A DNA stretch of 64,000 nt from Muricea muricata (taxonomy: Eukaryota; Cnidaria; Anthozoa; Malacalcyonacea; Plexauridae): NCBI GenBank assembly GCA_963855995.1, contig OY979716.1, forward strand, positions 32,124,230 to 32,188,229, written 5' to 3'. Below, one piece after another: positions 3,610-49,101 of this stretch; the stretch's first letter is position 1; each line of letters starts with the position of its first letter. The position numbers and the translations under genes are program-made. Below the pieces are notes generated by a model. The model worked only from the letters and a program-made list of their open reading frames with translations, was not told where the DNA came from and did not search any database.

Positions 3610-6938
<3,329 letters not shown>

Positions 6939-8234: not shown

Positions 8235-11200
8235 ATGCCAGTAAATTGTGTTATTCGTGGGTGCAAGAGTAATGGGTGTAGGAGTAAAAGTGGCAAAGAA
8301 AATAAGCCAAATATTTCGTTTCACAGGCAAGTGTTTATTATTTTAACCAATCAGTTGAGCTCTGAAATCAACTGTAGTTGTTGTCACACTGGAAATATGG
8401 CAAGGATATTATACAATAAACTCAAACATTTATATTTTGGATAATTTAATTCACTTGACACAGAGAGGGCAAATTTTAAAACAGGGCTAAGGACAACCTA
8501 AGCAAGGCCGTAGGAAGATGCAAAAAGTTAGGGGGGCTCTTCGAGCGCTGAAGGCACAAGTGCTGCTAGGGGGTCCGGGGACACCCCCCTCCCAGAATTT
8601 TTTTCTATTTTTAGCACGCTCAAACATGTTTTTCTGCACTTTTGAAGTTAGTTTTACCATAATCATTGGATTAAGACATGTGTAAGACTGTAAACCGTTA
8701 AAAACGGGTATTTACTTCGAGACTCAAAGCTCATTTTTAGGGGGGCTCAGCCCCCCTGCCTTTGATGTTAGGGGGGCTTGAGCCCCCCCTGCCTCCGTGG
8801 TTCTTACGGCCATGAACCTAAGGATTATGTTCATGAGCAAGTTTGCCCCTATAAAGGCTATTTACAGAAAAACAACAGATATTGTCTTTAGTAGGTTGCA
8901 GTAGTCAGACAATTAGTCATATGCAAAGGGCATACAGAAACAAGCTGTGATATAAAACAGTAGAACTAATATACACTACAAAATATAAAATATATACAAT
9001 CATATATATCATGAATTCAATCTGAAGTACATTTTTACCAACTCATATTATAACCATAACTACTACAGGTTTCCTTTAAAAGATCCACACTTGCTTAACA
9101 AATGGGAGAATGCTGTTGTGACAATAAACAAAGATGGCCAACTGTGGAGAGCCACCAAATACAGTTTCATTTGTAGTCACCATTTTGAACACCATGATTA
9201 TATTATCCCACCATCTTCTGGTAAGACCTGTAGGTTAAAAAAACATGCAATTCCATCAGTATTTTCAACATTGGAGCAACCTAATGCAATTCGTCTTTCA
9301 AATGAAGAAAGAAACAGGTTAGGGATTCCAAGGAAACATCCTCTTCCCCCTGATGACCCAGATGACATGTCACCACCAAAAAAGATCTTCCTTGAGCACA
9401 ACTACGCAAGAAAACAACCTGAAGATGAATGGCAAGAAGAGTCAACTGACGAAGAGGAAAAGCCGGACGAGAAGCCAGATTTGCAGCAAAAATTGAGACA
9501 AAAAATTAAGAACTTGCAACAGAAGCTAAGACGATCAAAGAAAAAGTTAGAGAATATGGCAAATTTGATTTCCCACTTACAGGAAAAATTAGTTATCAGT
9601 TCCGAGCAAGCAGGAATACTACATGCAGCATTTGACAACCTACAGTTCTCCCTTTTCCAAAATACCAAGAACAATGTAACAAGTGCACCATCAGCAAGAA
9701 GATACGATGATCAAGTAAAAGAGTTTGCACTAACACTCTACTTTTATTCGGCTAAGGCCTACAAATATGTGACATCAATAATTCCTCTGCCTCATCCTTC
9801 ATTGCTTCGAAAATGGTTATCCTCTGTCAACTATGAACCAGGCTTTTCCAAAGAAGCTTTTACTGCATTGGAAAGCGAGGTCAGCAAAGAAGCCATTAAA
9901 AGGGACTGTTGCTTAATAATAGATGCAATGTCTATTAGAATGATCGATATGTTGGTTTTGTAGACTATGGCAAGGGTGGCCCTGTTCTTGATGACCCAGA
10001 CACCTTAGCATCAGAAGCACACGTTTTTCTTCTTGTTGGGACAAGAAGCCATTGGAAGTGCCCTGTTGGCAACTTTCTAACTGCTAAAATTGAATCAACA
10101 ACTCAAGCACAATTGATTAAAACAGCTCTGGAAATGGCAGCTGATGCTGGTTTAAAGGTATGGTCTGTAACCGCAGACGGAACATCAGTAGACTTGAGTA
10201 CTTTTGAGCTACTAGGATGTCAGTTTGGTACCACATATGATACCTTTCAGACAAAATTCCAACATTCAACTACAGGAGAAGACGTGTTTTTGATTGCAGA
10301 TCCAAGCCACATGCTGAAATTGGCAAGGAATGCATTGGCATTCCTTGGTACCATTACTGATGAAGATGGTCAAAAAATACAATGGCATTATTTCCAACAA
10401 CGTCATATGCTTCAACAGGAAGAGGGTTTAAAGATGGCAAACAAGCTTTCATTCAACCACATCAAGTTTGAAAGGCACAAAATGAATGTAAGACTAGCGG
10501 CACAAACACTCAGTTCATCTGTGGCTGATGCGATAGAGTTTTTAGATGTTGGCATGAAAAATCAAAAATTTCAAAATAGCAGTGGAACAGTTAAATTTGT
10601 AAGAACAATTGATCGGCTTTTTGACATGCTAAATTCGAGAAACCCTGTGGGAAAAGGATACAAACAGCCCCTACGTTCAACAAACAAGGTTATGTATGAA
10701 GATATGCTGCAATCCACAGCAAAATATTTACTCTCCTTAAAGATAAACTTGACCTCAAAACTCCTAGCAACTCACAGACGGAAGACCTTTATCATTGGTT
10801 TTGTAACCACCATCAAATCAACCATCGAAATGGCAAATCAAATGTTCCTTATACCTAATGACCCTTTTAAATATCTCTTAACTTACAAATATTCACAAGA
10901 TCACCTGGAACTTTTGTTCTCCTGCATTCGATCTCGAGGCGGATGGAACAACAATCCTAACTGCTTGCAGTTCAAGTATGCCCTGCGCCAAATGATGATG
11001 AAGAATGCTATCACTGCATCAAAAAATGCAAACTGTACAGATTTTGCTGACAATTCTATCATTCCAATTTTCCACAGCACCAAGCACCAGTCACCATTAA
11101 GTGGAATGTCTTTAGAAGAGGACAAGGATGAGAATGCCGATGCAAACAATTCCATGGAAGAGGCAGAAGAGAGTTTGATGTTCGAACATTTGGACCGGGG

Positions 11201-11792
11201 CATTCACTCTGACTTTATTTCGAACATTCTATTTTATATTGGTGGGTTCATTGTGTCGAAACTCGTAAAGAAACTCACCTGTCAAGCATGCATAGATTGT
11301 CTTGTTGGCAGTATTAACAGAGCAGAATCAGATCACGATTACTGTGGACAGTCTGCATACAATGAAGTTTCAACAGCTGCTGCATTCACGCTATTTGTGA
11401 ACAACGGTGGATTGCGAATACCATCAAAGTCCGTTTTTACTACCATTGAACAGTGTGAACACATCTTCAAACAATATGTTTGCCAAAACGGAATCAGCAA
11501 CGCGAAAAATCTAAAAACCAAGATGATACTCAAAGTTTGCAATCATTTTCTTCTAAGTGTCAACAATTCTGTATTTGAAGACCATGAGATGGGTTTAAAC
11601 GCGAACATGGAGGAAAATGAGCATCAAATCAAACTTATAAAATGGACATCGGATAAATACTTTACCATGCGTCTCTTTACGTACGGGAAACATTTTAGCG
11701 AGACAGTTGTACATAGTGGAATGCCCAGTGCCAGGCACCAGTTGAACAAATTAATTTTATTTAGAAATCAATACAATAATACAATAAAATAA
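8235..11792 (+). pseudogene. P-element transposase (THAP9-like), frameshifted
   Basis: Exon 1 (8235-8326) encodes the first half of a THAP zinc finger (C-x4-C with ISFHR). It joins exon 2 at 9069 through a GC-AG intron (donor AG|GCAAGT at 8327, acceptor ACTACAG at 9068) that restores HRFP in frame, followed by a WRATKYSFICSHHF block with the CxxH half-site. A coiled coil follows (about 9480-9600), then the transposase core. At about 9935-9963 the frame is lost after IDAMSIR and reopens as YVGFVDYGKG one frame over, so a small deletion is likely. From about 9943 the frame is open to 11792, including CIRSRGGWNNNP, diagnostic for P/THAP9 transposases. Apart from that one lesion the gene looks young. 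Confidence 0.9.
8506..8811. mobile_element. MITE in the P-element intron
   Basis: Ends are GGCCGTAGGAAG (8506) and its near complement CTTACGGCC (to 8811). The interior carries AGGGGGGCT...AGCCCCCCT inverted blocks. It is 306 bp with no ORF and lies entirely inside the 742-bp intron of the P transposase, which explains the length of that intron. No convincing target duplication was seen, so the superfamily is not assigned. Confidence 0.55.
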
Positions 11793-18684: not shown

Positions 18685-18908
18685 TACTCATTCATTGCCT
18701 ATTCAAACCACCCCCCTGCAATCCTTAAACATATCCCGAAATCAGTTGGCCAACGAGTATCTAGCCGATCATCCAGCAAAGACGAATTCGATAAAGCAGC
18801 TCCGTTGTACAATGTGGCATTAAAAGCCAGTGGTTTTAAAGAGTCAGCCCCATTTGTGGAAATAGATAACCAAGAAAGAAAGAAAAACAGCAAGAGAAAT
18901 AGACATAA
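18685..18908 (+). pseudogene. Penelope 3 protein, left fragment
   Basis: The frame encodes the post-RT connector (SNHPPAILKHIPKSVGQRVS and DKAAPLYNVALKASGF), matching the equivalent part of Penelope 2. It ends where the Polinton derivative inserts and continues at 29159. Confidence 0.75.
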
Positions 18909-18943
18909 AGTAGTAATATAGGGGCCGATCAACCCTTTTTTTT

Positions 18944-19180
18944 AGGGCGCCGCAAGGGTACCGCAGGGCGCCGCAAGCCTCCATAGGGCGCCGCAAGGGT
19001 ACCGCAGGGCGCCGCAAGCCTCCATAGGGCGCCGCAAGGGTACCGCAGGGCGCCGCAAGCCTCCATAGGGCGCCGCAAGGGTACCGCAGGGCGCCGCAAG
19101 CCTCCATAGGGCGCCGCAAGGGTACCGCAGGGCGCCGCAAGGGTACCGCAGGGCGCCGCAAGCCTCCATAGGGCGCCGCA
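18944..19180. repeat. GC-rich 41-bp tandem array, left arm
   Basis: Alternating GGCGCCGCAAGGGTACCGCA and GGCGCCGCAAGCCTCCATA blocks give a 41-bp unit repeated about five times plus one extra GGTACC block. It is GC rich in an AT-rich region. The right arm has one unit fewer. Confidence 0.9.
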
Positions 19181-19199
19181 CTAATTAGTATGCGAGATT

Positions 19200-19795
19200 A
19201 TGATTGGTTGAACCGCATACGTACATACCGTGACGTACACACCGTGACGTACACCCCGTGACGTACACCCCGTGACGTACGCCATAGCTATGCTCTGATT
19301 GGTCAAACAGCGTGACGTACACCCCGTGACGTACACACCGTGGCTGCGCGAGGTTGCGCAAGCCTCCACAGGGTGCCGCACTAATTAGTATGCGAGATTA
19401 TGATTGGTCGAAAAGCGTACGTACACACCGTGACGTACACACCGTGACGTTCACTATAGCCGTGCTCTGATTGGTTAAAACAGCGTACGTATACCCCGTG
19501 ACGTACGCCATAGCCGTGCTCTGATTTGTTAAAACAGCGTACGTATGCCCCGTGACGTACGCTATAGCCGCGCTCTGGTTGGTTAAAACAGCGTACGTAT
19601 ACCCCGTGACGTACGCTATAGTCGCGCTCTGGTTGGTTAAAACAGTGTACGTATGCCCCGTGACGTACGCTATAGCCGCGCTCTGGTTGGTTAAAACAGC
19701 GTACGTATACCCCGTGACGTTCGCTATAGTCGCGCTCTGGTTGGTTAAAACAGTGTACGTATACCCCGTGACGTACGCCATAGGCGCGCTCTTTT
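19200..19795. repeat. 60-bp promoter-like tandem array, left arm
   Basis: About nine imperfect units of roughly 60 bp, each with CCCGTGACGTACGC, a GC-box-like GCCGCGCTCTGG, the CCAAT-type TTGGTTAAAA and CAGCGTACGTA. Each unit thus combines a TGACGTAC (CRE-like) site with an inverted CCAAT-type site. The units end directly before the GRF zinc-finger frame, so a terminal promoter/enhancer, replication or packaging region is plausible. The long ORFs in several frames come from a unit length divisible by three. Confidence 0.85.
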
Positions 19796-20031
19796 GCCGA
19801 CATGATCTGATATGTCGCACCAAGAAAGTGAAGAAAGAGGGTCCTAATCAGGATCGTTTATTCTATTGTTGTCCTCACCCAAGAGAAAGTGCTTGTGACT
19901 TCTTTGAGTGGAAACCTGACAAAGACCCCCTTGAGCCAGGTTGTGTTTGTCTGTTTAGTATGCCACCATCTTACCGATATACAGTGAGAAAGACAGGGGA
20001 GACATTTACTAGTAAGGAAACGGATTCGTAA
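19793..20031 (+). CDS. GRF-type zinc-finger protein, left arm
   Basis: A frame of about 79 codons starting within the last promoter-like unit. Its start codon is uncertain because the frame is open upstream through the array. It contains CRH, then KKEGPNQDRLFYCC and CDFFEWK, the CHCC pattern and FFxW end of GRF fingers that bind single-stranded DNA in topoisomerase 3, APE2 and NEIL3. The stop is at 20029-20031. A DNA-end or ssDNA-binding role in the element is inference. The 3' half is repeated in the downstream tandem units without the finger. Confidence 0.65.
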
Positions 20032-22592
20032 GAAAGCGTATGACGAATTCCTTCGGCAAAAGGAAATCGGTGAACTGATTCAGGACTTACAGATCTACTA
20101 ATAACTATAACAAAAGTGTGACTGTACATATAATTAAATGAACTTAAACATATAACTAAATATTGTTAAACACAAAACCAAATAAAATAGTTTTTGTAAA
20201 AGTCCCGTGGAGGGACAAATTGTGTCCCGCAAGTCCCGCAAAGTGATATTAGGTTTTGCAAAAGTCCCGTGGAGGGACACAAAGTCCCGTGGAGGGACAA
20301 ATTAAGTCCCGCGAGTCCCGTTTCAGCAAAACAAACCAATGCCCGCTCACGAACTCGATTCTATTATTGTCCAAAACCACATATATCGTGTTATATGATC
20401 TCCCGTGTTGTCAAGGTTTTATTCGCCTCGGGCAAAGTAAATAAGACACAGATGGTAATAACACGCACACATGTTAGTTGTTGAAAACATATATTCACAA
20501 AATAGCTATTTACAGATCAAATATCTAATGGAATGGTTGCAACACCGTCTTCCAAAACTTTACGTTTTGGATAAAAATAACTAAAAGCGTTTTTAACTTG
20601 AACATATGTGCACATTGTATTGTTCATAACTCTGAATCCCCTATTTACACCCGACCCACTACGTTTACTTAAAATTACATCGAAATATTTATCTTTATTA
20701 ATAACATAATTCTTTTTGTTAACCCCTTTGCAACTAAATTTGTCTTTCCCATCCCCAAAACAATAATACGTTTTACTACATAGACTAATTATCCCATCCC
20801 CGTGGAAACCCGACGAAGACCTCCTTGAGCCAGGTTGTGTTTGTCTGTTTAGTATGCCACCATCTTACCGATATACAGTGAGAAAGACAGGGGAAACATT
20901 TACTAGTAAGGAAACGGATTCGTAAGAAAGCGTATGACGAATTCCTTCGGCAAAAGGAAATCGGTGAACTGATTCAGGACTTACAGATCTACTAATAACT
21001 ATAACAAAAGTGTGACTGTACATATAATCAAATGAACTTAAACATATAACTAAATATTGTTAAACACAAAACCAAATAAAATAGTTTTTGTAAAAGTCCC
21101 GTGGAGGGACAAATTGTGTCCCGCAAGTCCCGCAAAGTGATATTAGGTTTTGCAAAAGTCCCGTGGAGGGACACAAAGTCCCGTGGAGGGACAAATTAAG
21201 TCCCGCGAGTCCCGTTTCAGCAAAACAATTCAATGCCCGCTCACGAACTCGATTCTATCATTGTCCAAAACCACATATATCGTGTTATATGATCCCCCGT
21301 GTTGTCAAGGTTTTATTCGCCTCGGGCAAAGTAAATAAGACACAGATGGTAATAACACGCACACATGTTAGTTGTTGAAAACATATATTCACAAAATAGC
21401 TATTTACAGATCAAATATCTAATGGAATGGTTGCAACACCGTCTTCCAAAACTTTACGTTTTGGATAAAAATAACTAAAAGCGTTTTTAACTTGAACATA
21501 TGTGCACATTGTATTGTTCATAACTCTGAGTCCCCTATTTACACCCGACCCACTACGTTTACTTAAAATTACATCGAAATATTTATCTTTATTAATAATA
21601 ACATTATTCTTTTTGTTAACCCCTTTGCAACTAAATTTGTCTTTCCCATCCCCAAAACAATAATACGTTTTACTACATAGACTAATTATCCCATCCCCGT
21701 GGAAACCAGACGAAGACCCCCTTGAGCCAGGTTGTGTTTGTCTGTTTAGTATGCCACCATCTTACCGATATACAATGAGAAAGACAGAGGAGACATTTAC
21801 TTGTAAGGAAACGGATTCGTAAGAAAGCGTATGACGAATTCCTTCGGCAAAAGGAAATCGGTGAACTGATTCAGGACTTACAGATCTACTAACAACTATA
21901 ACAAAAGTGTAACTGTACATATAATTAAATGAACTAAAACATATAACTAAATATTGTTAAACACAAAACCAAATAAAATAGTTTTTGTAAAAGTCCCGTG
22001 GAGGGACAAATTGTGTCCCGCAAGTCCCGCAAAGTGATATTAGGTTTTGCAAAAGTCCCGTGGAGGGACACAAAGTCCCGTGGAGGGACAAATTAAGTCC
22101 CGCGAGTCCCGTTTCAGCAAAACAAATCAATGCCCGCTCACGAACTCGATTCTATTATTGTCCAAAATCACATATATCGTGTTATATGATCCCCCGTGTT
22201 GTCAAGGTTTTATTCGCCTCGGGCAAAGTGAATAAGACACAGATGGTAATAACACGCACACATGTTAGTTGTTGAAAAGATATATTCACAAAATAGCTAT
22301 TTACAGATCAAATATCTAATGGAATGGTTGCAACACCGTCTTCCAAAACTTTACGTTTTGGATAAAAATAACTAAAAGCGTTTTTAACTTGAACATATGT
22401 GCACATTGTATTGTTCATAACTCTGAGTCCCCTATTTACACCCGACCCACTACGTTTACTTAAAATTACATCTAAATATTTATCTTTATTAATAACATTA
22501 TTCTTTTTGTTAACCTCTTTGCAACTAAATTTGTCTTTCCCATCTTCAAAACAATAATACGTTTTACTACATAGACTAATTATCCCATCCCC
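19908..22592. repeat. Threefold tandem duplication, about 895 bp units, left arm
   Basis: Units 19908-20801, 20802-21698 and 21699-22592. Each runs from the end of the GRF frame, through a block with repeated GTCCCGTGGAGGGAC palindrome-like motifs, to the C-terminal part of DNA polymerase B on the minus strand. The junction is always polB (ATCCC) joined to GTGGAAACC of the GRF gene. Copies are over 97 % identical by eye. Only the third has the longer polB end. Confidence 0.85.
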
Positions 22593-22634
22593 TTCCCACT
22601 CTACTTTAAATAATCCCGGCGTTCTCTTATCCAT
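22308..22634 (-). pseudogene. Protein-primed DNA polymerase B, C-terminal end, left arm
   Basis: A 108-codon minus-strand frame with PGLFKVEWEGDGII, YYCFEDGKDKFSCK and the C-terminal KRKVLEDGVATIPLDI, which is the end of the Polinton/Maverick pPolB. It ends normally with TGA but has no polymerase palm upstream: the sequence 5' of it is the inverted N-terminal part of the same gene. Shorter copies of this end lie in the two preceding tandem units (about 20515-20795 and 21415-21690). Confidence 0.8.
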
Positions 22635-22640
22635 CGACTA

Positions 22641-23992
22641 TTTGGTGGAAATTAGCCAGGAAAGCTATTCGCTATTGTTGGACCGTTTCTCTCATGTATT
22701 CGACCAAATCAGTCAACGAATAGTGAACGGTGAGGTATGTTGTGCGTTTGACCACCTAGGTATTTTCGAGACTTGTACTTATTACTATTATGACTATTTA
22801 GGTGTGTGCTGAAAGTGGCGATGACGTTGAAGAAATGGTGCAATGTCTTCTCACATTGAATCAGGTATAGACCATATTGTTGGTCAACTTGATCTGTGTA
22901 GTTCTTGCTCTTATTACTCTTTCTTATTTTTTTTTTTTTGCTGGAGACCCAAGATGAAGCGGACGCTAGTCAAGCAAGCGAGGACGAAGTGCATGAGGTA
23001 AATAATTTTAGAGGTTTAAAATTCTAGTCATGGTTTACTTATCTTTCCGGGCTTGTGATATATATGTGTAGCATTTTTTTTTTTTCCTCCGTTTTTTTCA
23101 GGCGAGTGAGAATGAGGAAAGTGGGGAAGAAAATACAATTAAAGGTTCACCCATTAGAAAAATTGCAAGAAAAACTGGAACTTCATCTCATGGAACTACC
23201 TGTTCTGGGCTTCAATTCCGGAAAGTATGATATCAACGCCGCTAAAAACCCTTTCTTTGCCCACCTCATGAAACATGAGCAAGTTAAGTTTGTGATAAAA
23301 AGAAACAACAGCCACATGTGTCTCAAGACAATACACTTGAAGTTTCTCGATATTACAAACCACTTGGCTCCTGGATTCTCCTACGAACAATTTTTAAAAG
23401 CTTACGAGTGCACACAGACCAAAGGGTACTTTCGTCTGACAAAGTTAAACTTATCCACCTTACCGCCCCCTGAAGCCTTGAATTCAACGCTTTCCAACAC
23501 CGCCATTTCCGAGGAACAATACGAGTACTGCCAGCGCGTGTGGAACGATAACAACATGGAAACGTTTCGTGACTTTTTGGTTTGATATAATAATCTTGAT
23601 GTCGTTCCCTTCCTCGAGGCTATTGACAAGATGAACAAGTTTTGGAAGGAGCGAGATATAGACATGTTTAAAGACGGCGTGAGTGTGCCAGGTTTGACAA
23701 TGAAATATTTATTTTCGAATGTTCTAAACGTGCATTTCTCACTGTTTAACGAAAAAGACAAAGACTTATACTATACCATGAAAGACAATAACGTCGGTGG
23801 CCCAAGTATAATATTTAACCGATACCACGAAACAGACAAAACTTTTATACGCAACGCAGAAATGACACGAAAGAAATCTAGAGCCTAAACCATGCAAGAA
23901 AGTGGTCGGTTACGACACCAATGCGCTATACCTCTGGGCGATCATGCAATATTTGTCAACCGGACAGTTTACGCGACGACTGGAAGGCGACG
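22641..23992 (+). pseudogene. DNA polymerase B N-terminal/exonuclease part, left arm
   Basis: Plus strand, inverted relative to the C-terminal end next to it. Acidic exon-like blocks (to 22734, about 22802-22863, 22952-22997, 23101 on) are separated by GT-AG intervals. The main frame 23130-23585 contains LPVLGFNSGKYDIN (exonuclease motif) and FLDITNHLAPGFSYEQFLKA. After a stop at 23584 it continues as FLEAIDKMNKFW, DMFKDGVSVPGL and VGGPSIIFNRYHE to 23888, then a frame change before GYDTNALYLWAIMQ. No palm catalytic motif is present. This is the N-terminal half of a Polinton pPolB with several lesions. Confidence 0.8.
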
Positions 23993-24108
23993 AGCTCCAA
24001 CTCTTTTCTCGGTATTTTTGTACCCATGTCTGATCTTTATCTGTTGTTGGTGGGCTTGCCATTCCAACCACTCGATCGGCTTTTTACCGCTCCATTGCTT
24101 TTTAGAGC
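23993..24108 (-). other. Single-copy centre of the palindrome
   Basis: A 116-bp spacer. Read on the minus strand it continues the right arm's polymerase frame (KPIEWLEWQAHQQQIKIRHG and NTEKRVGARRLPV), so it is polymerase sequence belonging to the right arm. The left arm stops at 23992. Confidence 0.75.
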
Positions 24109-25460
24109 CGTCGCTTTCCAGTCGTCGCGTAAACTGTCCGGTTGACATATATTGCATGATCGCCCAGAGGTATAGCGCATTGGTGTCGTAACCGACCACT
24201 TTCTTGCATGGTTTAGGCTCTAGATTTCTTTCGTGTCATTTCTGCGTTGCGTATAAAAGTTTTGTCTGTTTCGTGGTATCGGTTAAATATTATACTTGGG
24301 CCACCGACGTTATTGTCTTTCATGGTATAGTATAAGTCTTTGTCTTTTTCGTTAAACAGTGAGAAATGCACGTTTAGAACATTCGAAAATAAATATTTCA
24401 TTGTCAAACCTGGCACACTCACGCCGTCTTTAAACATGTCTATATCTCGCTCCTTCCAAAACTTGTTCATCTTGTCAATAGCCTCGAGGAAGGGAACGAC
24501 ATCAAGATTATTATATCAAACCAAAAAGTCACGAAACGTTTCCATGTTGTTATCGTTCCACACGCGCTGGCAGTACTCGTATTGTTCCTCGGAAATGGCG
24601 GTGTTGGAAAGCATTGAATTCAAGGCTTCAGGGGGCGGTAAGGTGGATAAGTTTAACTTTGTCAGACGAAAGTACCCTTTGGTCTGTGTGCACTCGTAAG
24701 CTTTTAAAAATTGTTCGTAGGAGAATCCAGGAGCCAAGTGGTTTGTAATATCGAGAAACTTCAAGTGTATTGTCTTGAGACACATGTGGCTGTTGTTTCT
24801 TTTTATCACAAACTTAACTTGCTCATGTTTCATGAGGTGGGCAAAGAAAGGGTTTTTAGCGGCGTTGATATCATACTTTCCGGAATTGAAGCCCAGAACA
24901 GGTAGTTCCATGAGATGAAGTTCCAGTTTTTCTTGCAATTTTTCTAATGGGTGAACCTTTAATTGTATTTTCTTCCCCACTTTCCTCATTCTCACTCGCC
25001 TGAAAAAAACGGAGGAAAAAAAAAAAATGCTACACATATATATCACAAGCCCGGAAAGATAAGTAAACCATGACTAGAATTTTAAACCTCTAAAATTATT
25101 TACCTCATGCACTTCGTCCTCGCTTGCTTGACTAGCGTCCGCTTCATCTTGGGTCTCCAGCAAAAAAAAAAAAATAAGAAAGAGTAATAAGAGCAAGAAC
25201 TACACAGATCAAGTTGACCAACAATATGGTCTATACCTGATTCAATGTGAGAAGACATTGCACCATTTCTTCAACGTCATCGCCACTTTCAGCACACACC
25301 TAAATAGTCATAATAGTAATAAGTACAAGTCTCGAAAATACCTAGGTGGTCAAACGCACAACATACCTCACCGTTCACTATTCGTTGACTGATTTGGTCG
25401 AATACATGAGAGAAACGGTCCAACAATAGCGAATAGCTTTCCTGGCTAATTTCCACCAAA
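24109..25460 (-). pseudogene. DNA polymerase B N-terminal/exonuclease part, right arm
   Basis: Mirror copy of 22641-23992, including the same stop codon and exon-like blocks, with a C-to-T type difference at 24613 (Thr to Met in the frame 25046-24516). Its frame runs further, into the centre of the palindrome. Confidence 0.8.
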
Positions 25461-25466
25461 TAGTCG

Positions 25467-25793
25467 ATGGATAAGAGAACGCCGGGATTATTTAAAGTAG
25501 AGTGGGAAGGGGATGGGATAATTAGTCTATGTAGTAAAACGTATTATTGTTTTGAAGATGGGAAAGACAAATTTAGTTGCAAAGAGGTTAACAAAAAGAA
25601 TAATGTTATTAATAAAGATAAATATTTAGATGTAATTTTAAGTAAACGTAGTGGGTCGGGTGTAAATAGGGGACTCAGAGTTATGAACAATACAATGTGC
25701 ACATATGTTCAAGTTAAAAACGCTTTTAGTTATTTTTATCCAAAACGTAAAGTTTTGGAAGACGGTGTTGCAACCATTCCATTAGATATTTGA
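25467..25793 (+). pseudogene. DNA polymerase B C-terminal end, right arm
   Basis: Mirror copy of 22308-22634, identical at the protein level. Upstream polymerase palm is missing as in the left arm. Confidence 0.8.
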
Positions 25794-28193
25794 TCTGTAA
25801 ATAGCTATTTTGTGAATATATCTTTTCAACAACTAACATGTGTGCGTGTTATTACCATCTGTGTCTTATTCACTTTGCCCGAGGCGAATAAAACCTTGAC
25901 AACACGGGGGATCATATAACACGATATATGTGATTTTGGACAATAATAGAATCGAGTTCGTGAGCGGGCATTGATTTGTTTTGCTGAAACGGGACTCGCG
26001 GGACTTAATTTGTCCCTCCACGGGACTTTGTGTCCCTCCACGGGACTTTTGCAAAACCTAATATCACTTTGCGGGACTTGCGGGACACAATTTGTCCCTC
26101 CACGGGACTTTTACAAAAACTATTTTATTTGGTTTTGTGTTTAACAATATTTAGTTATATGTTTTAGTTCATTTAATTATATGTACAGTTACACTTTTGT
26201 TATAGTTGTTAGTAGATCTGTAAGTCCTGAATCAGTTCACCGATTTCCTTTTGCCGAAGGAATTCGTCATACGCTTTCTTACGAATCCGTTTCCTTACAA
26301 GTAAATGTCTCCTCTGTCTTTCTCATTGTATATCGGTAAGATGGTGGCATACTAAACAGACAAACACAACCTGGCTCAAGGGGGTCTTCGTCTGGTTTCC
26401 ACGGGGATGGGATAATTAGTCTATGTAGTAAAACGTATTATTGTTTTGGGGATGGGAAAGACAAATTTAGTTGCAAAGGGGTTAACAAAAAGAATAATGT
26501 TATTATTAATAAAGATAAATATTTCGATGTAATTTTAAGTAAACGTAGTGGGTCGGGTGTAAATAGGGGACTCAGAGTTATGAACAATACAATGTGCACA
26601 TATGTTCAAGTTAAAAACGCTTTTAGTTATTTTTATCCAAAACGTAAAGTTTTGGAAGACGGTGTTGCAACCATTCCATTAGATATTTGATCTGTAAATA
26701 GCTATTTTGTGAATATATGTTTTCAACAACTAACATGTGTGCGTGTTATTACCATCTGTGTCTTATTTACTTTGCCCGAGGCGAATAAAACCTTGACAAC
26801 ACGGGGGATCATATAACACGATATATGTGGTTTTGGACAATGATAGAATCGAGTTCGTGAGCGGGCATTGAATTGTTTTGCTGAAACGGGACTCGCGGGA
26901 CTTAATTTGTCCCTCCACGGGACTTTGTGTCCCTCCACGGGACTTTTGCAAAACCTAATATCACTTTGCGGGACTTGCGGGACACAATTTGTCCCTCCAC
27001 GGGACTTTTACAAAAACTATTTTATTTGGTTTTGTGTTTAACAATATTTAGTTATATGTTTAAGTTCATTTGATTATATGTACAGTCACACTTTTGTTAT
27101 AGTTATTAGTAGATCTGTAAGTCCTGAATCAGTTCACCGATTTCCTTTTGCCGAAGGAATTCGTCATACGCTTTCTTACGAATCCGTTTCCTTACTAGTA
27201 AATGTTTCCCCTGTCTTTCTCACTGTATATCGGTAAGATGGTGGCATACTAAACAGACAAACACAACCTGGCTCAAGGAGGTCTTCGTCGGGTTTCCACG
27301 GGGATGGGATAATTAGTCTATGTAGTAAAACGTATTATTGTTTTGGGGATGGGAAAGACAAATTTAGTTGCAAAGGGGTTAACAAAAAGAATTATGTTAT
27401 TAATAAAGATAAATATTTCGATGTAATTTTAAGTAAACGTAGTGGGTCGGGTGTAAATAGGGGATTCAGAGTTATGAACAATACAATGTGCACATATGTT
27501 CAAGTTAAAAACGCTTTTAGTTATTTTTATCCAAAACGTAAAGTTTTGGAAGACGGTGTTGCAACCATTCCATTAGATATTTGATCTGTAAATAGCTATT
27601 TTGTGAATATATGTTTTCAACAACTAACATGTGTGCGTGTTATTACCATCTGTGTCTTATTTACTTTGCCCGAGGCGAATAAAACCTTGACAACACGGGA
27701 GATCATATAACACGATATATGTGGTTTTGGACAATAATAGAATCGAGTTCGTGAGCGGGCATTGGTTTGTTTTGCTGAAACGGGACTCGCGGGACTTAAT
27801 TTGTCCCTCCACGGGACTTTGTGTCCCTCCACGGGACTTTTGCAAAACCTAATATCACTTTGCGGGACTTGCGGGACACAATTTGTCCCTCCACGGGACT
27901 TTTACAAAAACTATTTTATTTGGTTTTGTGTTTAACAATATTTAGTTATATGTTTAAGTTCATTTAATTATATGTACAGTCACACTTTTGTTATAGTTAT
28001 TAGTAGATCTGTAAGTCCTGAATCAGTTCACCGATTTCCTTTTGCCGAAGGAATTCGTCATACGCTTTCTTACGAATCCGTTTCCTTACTAGTAAATGTC
28101 TCCCCTGTCTTTCTCACTGTATATCGGTAAGATGGTGGCATACTAAACAGACAAACACAACCTGGCTCAAGGGGGTCTTTGTCAGGTTTCCAC
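25509..28193. repeat. Threefold tandem duplication, right arm
   Basis: Mirror of 19908-22592. Because all three units and their private differences are mirrored, the triplication preceded formation of the palindrome (or the arms were homogenised). Confidence 0.85.
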
Positions 28194-28308
28194 TCAAAGA
28201 AGTCACAAGCACTTTCTCTTGGGTGAGGACAACAATAGAATAAACGATCCTGATTAGGACCCTCTTTCTTCACTTTCTTGGTGCGACATATCAGATCATG
28301 TCGGCAAA
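28070..28308 (-). CDS. GRF-type zinc-finger protein, right arm
   Basis: Mirror copy of 19793-20031 with the same CHCC residues and FFEW end, intact. Confidence 0.65.
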
Positions 28309-28901
28309 AGAGCGCGCCTATGGCGTACGTCACGGGGTATACGTACACTGTTTTAACCAACCAGAGCGCGACTATAGCGTACGTCACGGGGTATACGTAC
28401 GCTGTTTTAACCAACCAGAGCGCGGCTATAGCGTACGTCACGGGGCATACGTACACTGTTTTAACCAACCAGAGCGCGACTATAGCGTACGTCACGGGGT
28501 ATACGTACGCTGTTTTAACCAACCAGAGCGCGGCTATAGCGTACGTCACGGGGCATACGTACGCTGTTTTAACAAATCAGAGCACGGCTATGGCGTACGT
28601 CACGGGGTATACGTACGCTGTTTTAACCAATCAGAGCACGGCTATAGTGAACGTCACGGTGTGTACGTCACGGTGTGTACGTACGCTTTTCGACCAATCA
28701 TAATCTCGCATACTAATTAGTGCGGCACCCTGTGGAGGCTTGCGCAACCTCGCGCAGCCACGGTGTGTACGTCACGGGGTGTACGTCACGCTGTTTGACC
28801 AATCAGAGCATAGCTATGGCGTACGTCACGGGGTGTACGTCACGGGGTGTACGTCACGGTGTGTACGTCACGGTATGTACGTATGCGGTTCAACCAATCA
28901 T
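28306..28901. repeat. 60-bp promoter-like tandem array, right arm
   Basis: Mirror of 19200-19795. One substitution was seen (28380 against 19721). Confidence 0.85.
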
Positions 28902-28920
28902 AATCTCGCATACTAATTAG

Positions 28921-29116
28921 TGCGGCGCCCTATGGAGGCTTGCGGCGCCCTGCGGTACCCTTGCGGCGCCCTGCGGTACCCTTGCGGCGCCCTATGGAGG
29001 CTTGCGGCGCCCTGCGGTACCCTTGCGGCGCCCTATGGAGGCTTGCGGCGCCCTGCGGTACCCTTGCGGCGCCCTATGGAGGCTTGCGGCGCCCTGCGGT
29101 ACCCTTGCGGCGCCCT
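28921..29116. repeat. GC-rich 41-bp tandem array, right arm
   Basis: Mirror of 18944-19180 but about 41 bp (one unit) shorter, the only length difference found between the arms. Confidence 0.9.
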
Positions 29117-29158
29117 AAAAAAAAGGGTTGATCGGCCCCTATATTACTACTGACATAA

Positions 29159-48004: not shown

Positions 48005-48149
48005 TTGACTCCCACACGGCAATCTTGTAAAACAGTATTCAAGTTGTAAATATGCATGTAAATTAGATTATTAGATATTTAACTATAGTATAGTTTTGTT
48101 TATTAATATTGTGTATATACTGAAGATTTTACCGTGTATAAATAAAGAG

Positions 48150-48987
<838 letters not shown>

Positions 48988-49101
48988 GACGTAAATGAGT
49001 CTCAATCCGCGTGTTCAAATTCTTTAACATACTAAATCGTTTGGTTCGTCATCAGTTACGCCCAGGCATTGACGATGGAACGCGCGCTCCGATTATTGGA
49101 A

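Follow-up and report, generated by a model that had tools for sequence, protein, structure and literature searches.

Long palindromic Polinton derivatives in Muricea muricata, with evidence for founding by replication snap-back

Within a 64,000-nucleotide stretch of the Muricea muricata genome (Cnidaria; Anthozoa; assembly GCA_963855995.1, contig OY979716.1, positions 32,124,230 to 32,188,229; hereafter "the window"), positions 18909-29151 hold a long palindrome derived from a transposon of the Polinton/Maverick group. Its left arm (18909-23992, + strand, 5,084 bp) and right arm (24109-29151, - strand, 5,043 bp, an inverted copy of the left) flank a 116-bp spacer, or loop (23993-24108), which is a piece of polymerase gene read on the - strand. 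A preliminary description of this DNA had reported two inverted copies of about 5.05 kb around a 116-bp centre with four substitutions and one 41-bp difference, and our base-by-base comparison of the arms across 5,043 aligned positions bears this out, with 5,039 identities, four substitutions (19721/28380, 23488/24613, 23953/24148 and 23986/24115) and a single 41-base gap that stems from 41-bp tandem repeats near the left end (18943-19209, + strand). Inverted-repeat detection in the window returned the palindrome as one inverted pair of 5,009 nt. The outermost 27 bp of the two arms (18909-18935, + strand, and 29125-29151, - strand) are identical, and the direct repeat GACATAA that had been described on both borders is found at 18902-18908 and 29152-29158, forming the left and right target-site duplications. 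Joining the flanks with one copy of GACATAA yields one continuous reading frame, which aligns across the insertion site to a neighbouring retroelement copy (48/103 amino acids (aa) identical, BLASTP). The interruption of a retroelement frame that resumes after the insertion thus stands as previously described, but its name is less secure: we take the host to be a Penelope element, with only a weak Pfam match to GIY-YIG at 19.6 bits, below the cut-off of 22.6.

The window palindrome belongs to a family of about 47 copies inserted as units. We searched the genome (453 Mb, 74 contigs) with a 301-bp centre query and scored the best 40 of 103 candidates, all 40 of which carry the full 301-bp centre and both inverted partial matches. 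A 50-bp spacer pattern, allowing up to three mismatches, occurs at 89 places, compared with none for the reversed control: 47 are of the palindrome type, of which 39 are exact and 8 differ by another single change; a further 31 have the G that is typical of other copies of the polymerase gene (PolB), and the remaining 11 were counted without their letters. All 41 of the palindrome-type spacers that we examined (the 40 scored centres and L053) are palindromic. Besides the window copy, 20 copies were read as halves, giving 21 of the 47 copies for the arm analyses below; in all 20, matching inner arms flank the same centre, some with insertions. Among 11 copies with both termini, five have arms equal within 50 bp, and in the other six the arm lengths differ by about one or two units of ~894 bp or by other lengths.

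The 27-bp terminus has 98 matches in the genome at up to two mismatches (reversed control, 0). Both borders were readable in 14 elements, one of which (L035) had only two flank bases, leaving 13 testable. Twelve of these show 6-bp target duplications: nine palindromes of the window's own class, here class A (L009, L015, L023, L027, L029, L039, L041, L043 and L047), one of class B (L051), one of class C (at C9:949302) and one full-length element. The window copy has a duplication of 7 bp, so the 6 bp expected of a Polinton applies to its relatives and not to itself. The check proposed in the preliminary description, a search for copies that share this centre but differ in their target duplications, thus proved positive, and a one-off accident is ruled out by so many copies with flanks and duplications of their own. 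Three copies (L009, L039 and L043) combine the same centre with a variant terminus, AGTAGTATTATAAAGG, which matches at both ends of each copy.

The same termini bound a non-palindromic, full-length relative of 14.1 kb (C1:77127138-77141285), which we read as two halves (L049 and L050). It encodes an integrase of the retroviral type with a chromodomain (Pfam rve, 3.8e-13; Chromo, 7.7e-11; both above cut-off) and a polymerase in two open reading frames (ORFs), one of which matches DNA_pol_B_2 at 26.0 bits (cut-off 25.8) while the second has no Pfam match; by this domain match, the polymerase is assigned to the protein-primed type of family B. A packaging-ATPase-like ORF scores 21.7 bits with Pox_A32, just below the cut-off of 22.8, which the class B element L051 exceeds at 25.2 bits. 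Pfam gave no match for capsid proteins or a cysteine protease; a 449-aa ORF has no credible match in the PDB, and a 181-aa ORF shows a weak likeness to a viral cysteine protease (E 0.0018). With their terminal inverted repeats and short target duplications, the elements conform to the Polinton/Maverick group.

Aligned to this full-length relative, the window arm proves to be composite: it is made up of the left end, a C-terminal part of PolB set within three units of ~894 bp, and an N-terminal part of PolB in inverted orientation. The earlier view of the arms as copies of a single Polinton end does not hold, and the same alignment rules out a simple palindrome of one Polinton end for class A. 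Inward of the 41-bp repeats, the left arm carries 54-bp tandem repeats (19379-19864, + strand; mirrored at about 28255-28686), the three ~894-bp units, each a left-end piece joined to a C-terminal PolB piece (19908-22592, + strand; mirrored at 25509-28193), a C-terminal PolB piece (22311-22637, - strand; 93% identity over 107 aa to the full-length relative), and the inverted N-terminal PolB piece (23106-23992, + strand; mirrored at 24109-24995 on the - strand), which contains an in-frame stop and a frame change. Reading frames of at least 45 aa in one arm are broken PolB pieces only; the window element has no complete polymerase or integrase of its own and is not an autonomous Polinton. The PolB assignment rests on protein homologues, the named ones coming from cnidarians (Porites, Actinostola), one sea star and one mussel, and on the full-length relative. 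On their own, the window's PolB pieces gave weak, unrelated matches in Pfam, PHROGs and the PDB and matched no Pfam polymerase model; scans of IMG/VR with two PolB pieces found no relatives, and an Rfam scan found nothing. Identity to the full-length element is 99% in one subterminal block of ~270 bp and 95.5% over the 112 bp of the spacer that align. Because the inner arm is only 89-92% identical, sequence comparison marks the full-length element as a relative of the palindrome and not its parent.

The PolB strand of the full-length relative and the - strand of the palindrome run collinear over 183 nt as far as 23977, beyond which they part. Where the polymerase-gene strand turns back, its last 16 nt (23977-23992, - strand) are the presumed fold-back primer; the presumed priming target lies on the other side of the 116-nt loop (24109-24124, - strand). 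The two are complementary at 15 of 16 positions: from the 3' end, nine matches are followed by one mismatch (23986/24115) and six further matches. We chose this 16-mer after inspecting the junction; when the 210-nt stretch upstream was shuffled 5,000 times, no shuffle reached 15/16. The complement is an imperfect one, with no exact inverted 10-mers in the parental stretch. The primer mismatch persists in 20 of 21 copies as a difference between the arms (23986/24115), and L009 shares the state at 23953/24148, marking two of the four arm substitutions of the window copy as older. One end inversely duplicated around a short loop, at a short complement, is the layout of a snap-back genome, and founding of the palindrome by snap-back is well supported by these features. 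The turn point and the short complement, seen against the full-length relative, support the earlier proposal that a replication error produced a fold-back Polinton genome with two identical ends.

To compare the arms we used 1,400 inner reference-anchored columns in the 21 copies, replacing a MAFFT alignment spoilt by non-homologous insertions in some arms; partial arms (right arm of L011, left arms of L013, L019 and L041, both arms of L029) cover 611-1,220 of these columns. Arms differ on average by 0.51% within a copy and by 1.03% between copies, a contrast matched by none of 10,000 shuffles of the arm pairing, and in 20 of the 21 copies the arms differ less from each other than that copy differs on average from the rest. 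We counted 110 minority alleles at distances greater than 80 bp from the spacer. Sixteen occur in both arms of at least two copies and none in the same arm of two copies, while the private alleles comprise 35 in both arms and 54 in one arm of a single copy (Fisher p 2.3e-6 for 16 versus 0 against 35 versus 54). Simulations without any resetting of the arms, fitted to the within- and between-copy differences under two tree shapes with 300 runs each, produced on average 13.2 and 16.7 single-arm alleles shared between copies, and no run of either shape gave zero. Since no shared single-arm allele is seen beside 16 shared both-arm alleles, where simulations expect 13-17, it appears that each transposition renders the two arms identical, save for the zone next to the loop. 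This resetting is a more novel claim than founding by snap-back, and it draws on 21 of the 47 copies.

Beside the loop the pattern is different. Arms of the same copy differ by 6.1% in the first 50 bp next to the spacer, compared with 0.16-0.38% farther out. Positions 23950, 23956 and 23969 show states that are nested from the outside inwards, in which it is always the left allele that replaces the right; L043, the sole copy changed at 23986, breaks the nesting. Because the copies are not independent, the direction of replacement is only a hint. Class C offers a parallel, in which a mismatch 48 bp from its own spacer is kept in three of four stretches.

We consider it likely that the family represents a non-autonomous palindromic Polinton derivative that was founded by snap-back, is inserted as a unit by enzymes acting in trans, and has its arms reset in each cycle. 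During replication of a linear Polinton, presumably protein-primed, a single strand ending in the polymerase gene would have folded back at the 16-nt imperfect complement, primed on itself and been copied to its own end, and the resulting hairpin would have given rise to a linear palindrome with two identical termini. Such palindromes have been inserted as units at dozens of sites with 6-bp duplications. Enzymes would be supplied in trans, because the palindrome has a broken polymerase only and relatives with integrase and polymerase reside in the same genome; insertion by machinery in trans, as first proposed for the window element, fits its content well. In each cycle, a hairpin or a re-primed truncated strand could allow one arm to be copied or repaired from the other, such that the arms would be identical at insertion except for about the first 45 bp beside the loop, kept as an annealed stub or spared from repair. 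On a broader reading we are evenly divided: palindromic Polintons may be self-sustaining satellites that use protein priming at the end and self-priming at the loop, with arms rebuilt per cycle, a loop-proximal stub of ~45 nt inherited as primer, and several such forms derived from this Polinton group.

A number of observations weigh against this account. A tree shows only 8 of 21 arm pairs as sisters, and the arms of L045 differ by 1.01% from each other and by 0.99% from other copies. Beyond 80 bp, a limit set after we had seen a single-arm state common to L019 and L045 at 75 bp, three alleles sit in opposite arms of two copies, and five are mixed, with some copies carrying them in both arms and another in one arm only; three of the five are also among the 16 shared alleles, and two belong to the close pair W and L009. 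Mixed alleles could be single-arm states that were inherited and then converted. In the reset model the absence of shared single-arm alleles is built in, and the model predicts too few private both-arm alleles (9 versus 35 seen). The composite arm needs further rearrangements beyond the present explanation, the capsid and protease of the full-length relative would be identified by place and weak resemblance, and the intermediates, the priming and the helper action are read from sequence and not observed.

Gene conversion keeps the arms of Y-chromosome palindromes alike, and if it acted here after insertion, the palindrome could be copied like other DNA with no hairpin stage after founding. Conversion would help to explain the mixed alleles and the 35 private both-arm alleles, and the outside-in nesting of loop-proximal states fits conversion tracts; yet copies should then inherit single-arm variants, and none is shared in the same arm beyond 80 bp where simulations give 13.2 and 16.7. 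Single-arm states are inherited beside the loop, so the test is able to see them, and we regard conversion in place of resetting as unlikely. That the palindromes are an artefact of assembly or of fold-back chimeric reads has a negligible probability: perfect palindromes are a known product of chimeric reads, but the copies stand at many places, their flanks and duplications differ from one place to the next, they share fixed arm differences, and their arms can be unequal in unit number, all of which speaks against an artefact. Finally, the founding fold-back might have taken place at a break or a stalled fork within a Polinton already in the chromosome, through fold-back repair or template switching of the type seen in origin-dependent inverted-repeat amplification (ODIRA), with mobilisation later. 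Fold-back at short inverted complements is known in chromosomal DNA, as described in three reports (PMC10766183, PMC10622511, PMC7467729). An inverted chromosomal duplication would, however, include flanking DNA, whereas the palindrome reaches the transposon termini and goes no further, a target duplication is present, the flanks are unlike, and several classes share these termini; we therefore judge a chromosomal founding to be very improbable, and return to snap-back during Polinton replication as the preferred origin.

Class A is not the only palindromic form. From the 98 terminus matches we assembled 38 pairs by hand, and examined the midpoints of 20 pairs and of L051 for centre type. At least 20 of the 38 pairs are palindromic (10 of class A with the centre, 3 of class B and 7 of class C); the rest comprise three with class A arm sequence but no spacer match, three B- or C-like, one unclassed, and 11 that are PolB or full-length, most of these called from one match or midpoint only. 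Class B includes L051 (arms of 2,105 and 2,028 bp, 5 mismatches), L062 and L063, and class C includes L054, L056, L058, L059, L060, L061 and L067, the centres being different between classes. Both classes share termini with class A, and a search with the class C centre found nine adjacent inverted pairs among the best 40 of 735 candidates. Two inverted PolB pairs with identical spacing lie 614 kb apart (C1:119859697-119866848 and C1:120473875-120481026; genome G000), and from this spacing they are probably a fourth class, D, or one duplicated palindrome. The other palindromes would have arisen from the same Polinton group. At L068, the midpoint of C2:50176889-50185395, class A arm sequence flips from arm position 4424 to 3643 reversed, which would mark either another point of turning or a deletion that removed the centre.

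Compared with a Polinton/Maverick, the palindrome shares termini and 6-bp duplications. It consists of one end in duplicate, with no integrase and no whole polymerase, whereas the full-length relative has a chromodomain integrase and a DNA_pol_B_2 polymerase. Symmetric defective adenovirus genomes such as Ad12 SYREC are a close parallel, each being a palindrome built from a single end of a linear genome that replicates by protein priming; unlike the elements described here, they are not known to form inherited insertions with target duplications. Snapback genomes of adeno-associated virus are self-complementary and helper-dependent, with one end duplicated either symmetrically or around a loop (PMC8235507). 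For the palindrome, replication as a hairpin with helper enzymes would follow from the shared-allele counts and the simulations. The viral genomes are packaged parvovirus by-products, whereas palindromic Polintons are inherited insertions grown into a family. In yeast, ODIRA proceeds through an inverted linear extrachromosomal intermediate made by template switching (PMC10766183); this intermediate is alike, but belongs to host chromosomal replication, without transposon termini or integration. Foldback, Galileo and miniature inverted-repeat transposable elements (MITEs; PMC3573991) resemble the family in their long, internally repetitive inverted ends and non-autonomous spread, but use other transposases, while here the whole element is palindromic with Polinton termini. 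The label "giant snap-back MITE" given in the preliminary description therefore captures a non-autonomous Polinton form, although "MITE" fits loosely.

A search of the literature at the level of titles and abstract openings found no palindromic Polinton. To our knowledge, Polinton replication has so far been deduced mostly from genes; these insertions would add a record of replication events, in a primer site with its mismatch, seemingly reset arms and a loop-proximal zone that escapes resetting. If this is true, extrachromosomal linear copying by strand displacement becomes a testable model in an animal genome. The palindromes would also add a class of non-autonomous element that is very long, wholly palindromic and recurrent, and that repeat catalogues may take for long inverted repeats or misassemblies.

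The window contains other mobile elements. On the - strand at 48103-49014 lies another Polinton remnant, a packaging-ATPase-like fragment (32% over 69 aa to L051) that on its own gives nothing above the Pfam cut-off and continues into an octanucleotide array, (SINQ)n. Two inverted pairs of Penelope-like pieces lie immediately to the left of the insertion, 12690-13834/14605-15758 (98.1%) and 15652-16792/17342-18495 (96.4%). A DNA transposase of THAP/TNP-like type occupies 8989-11792, with Pfam matches to TNP-like domains down to E 1.9e-43.

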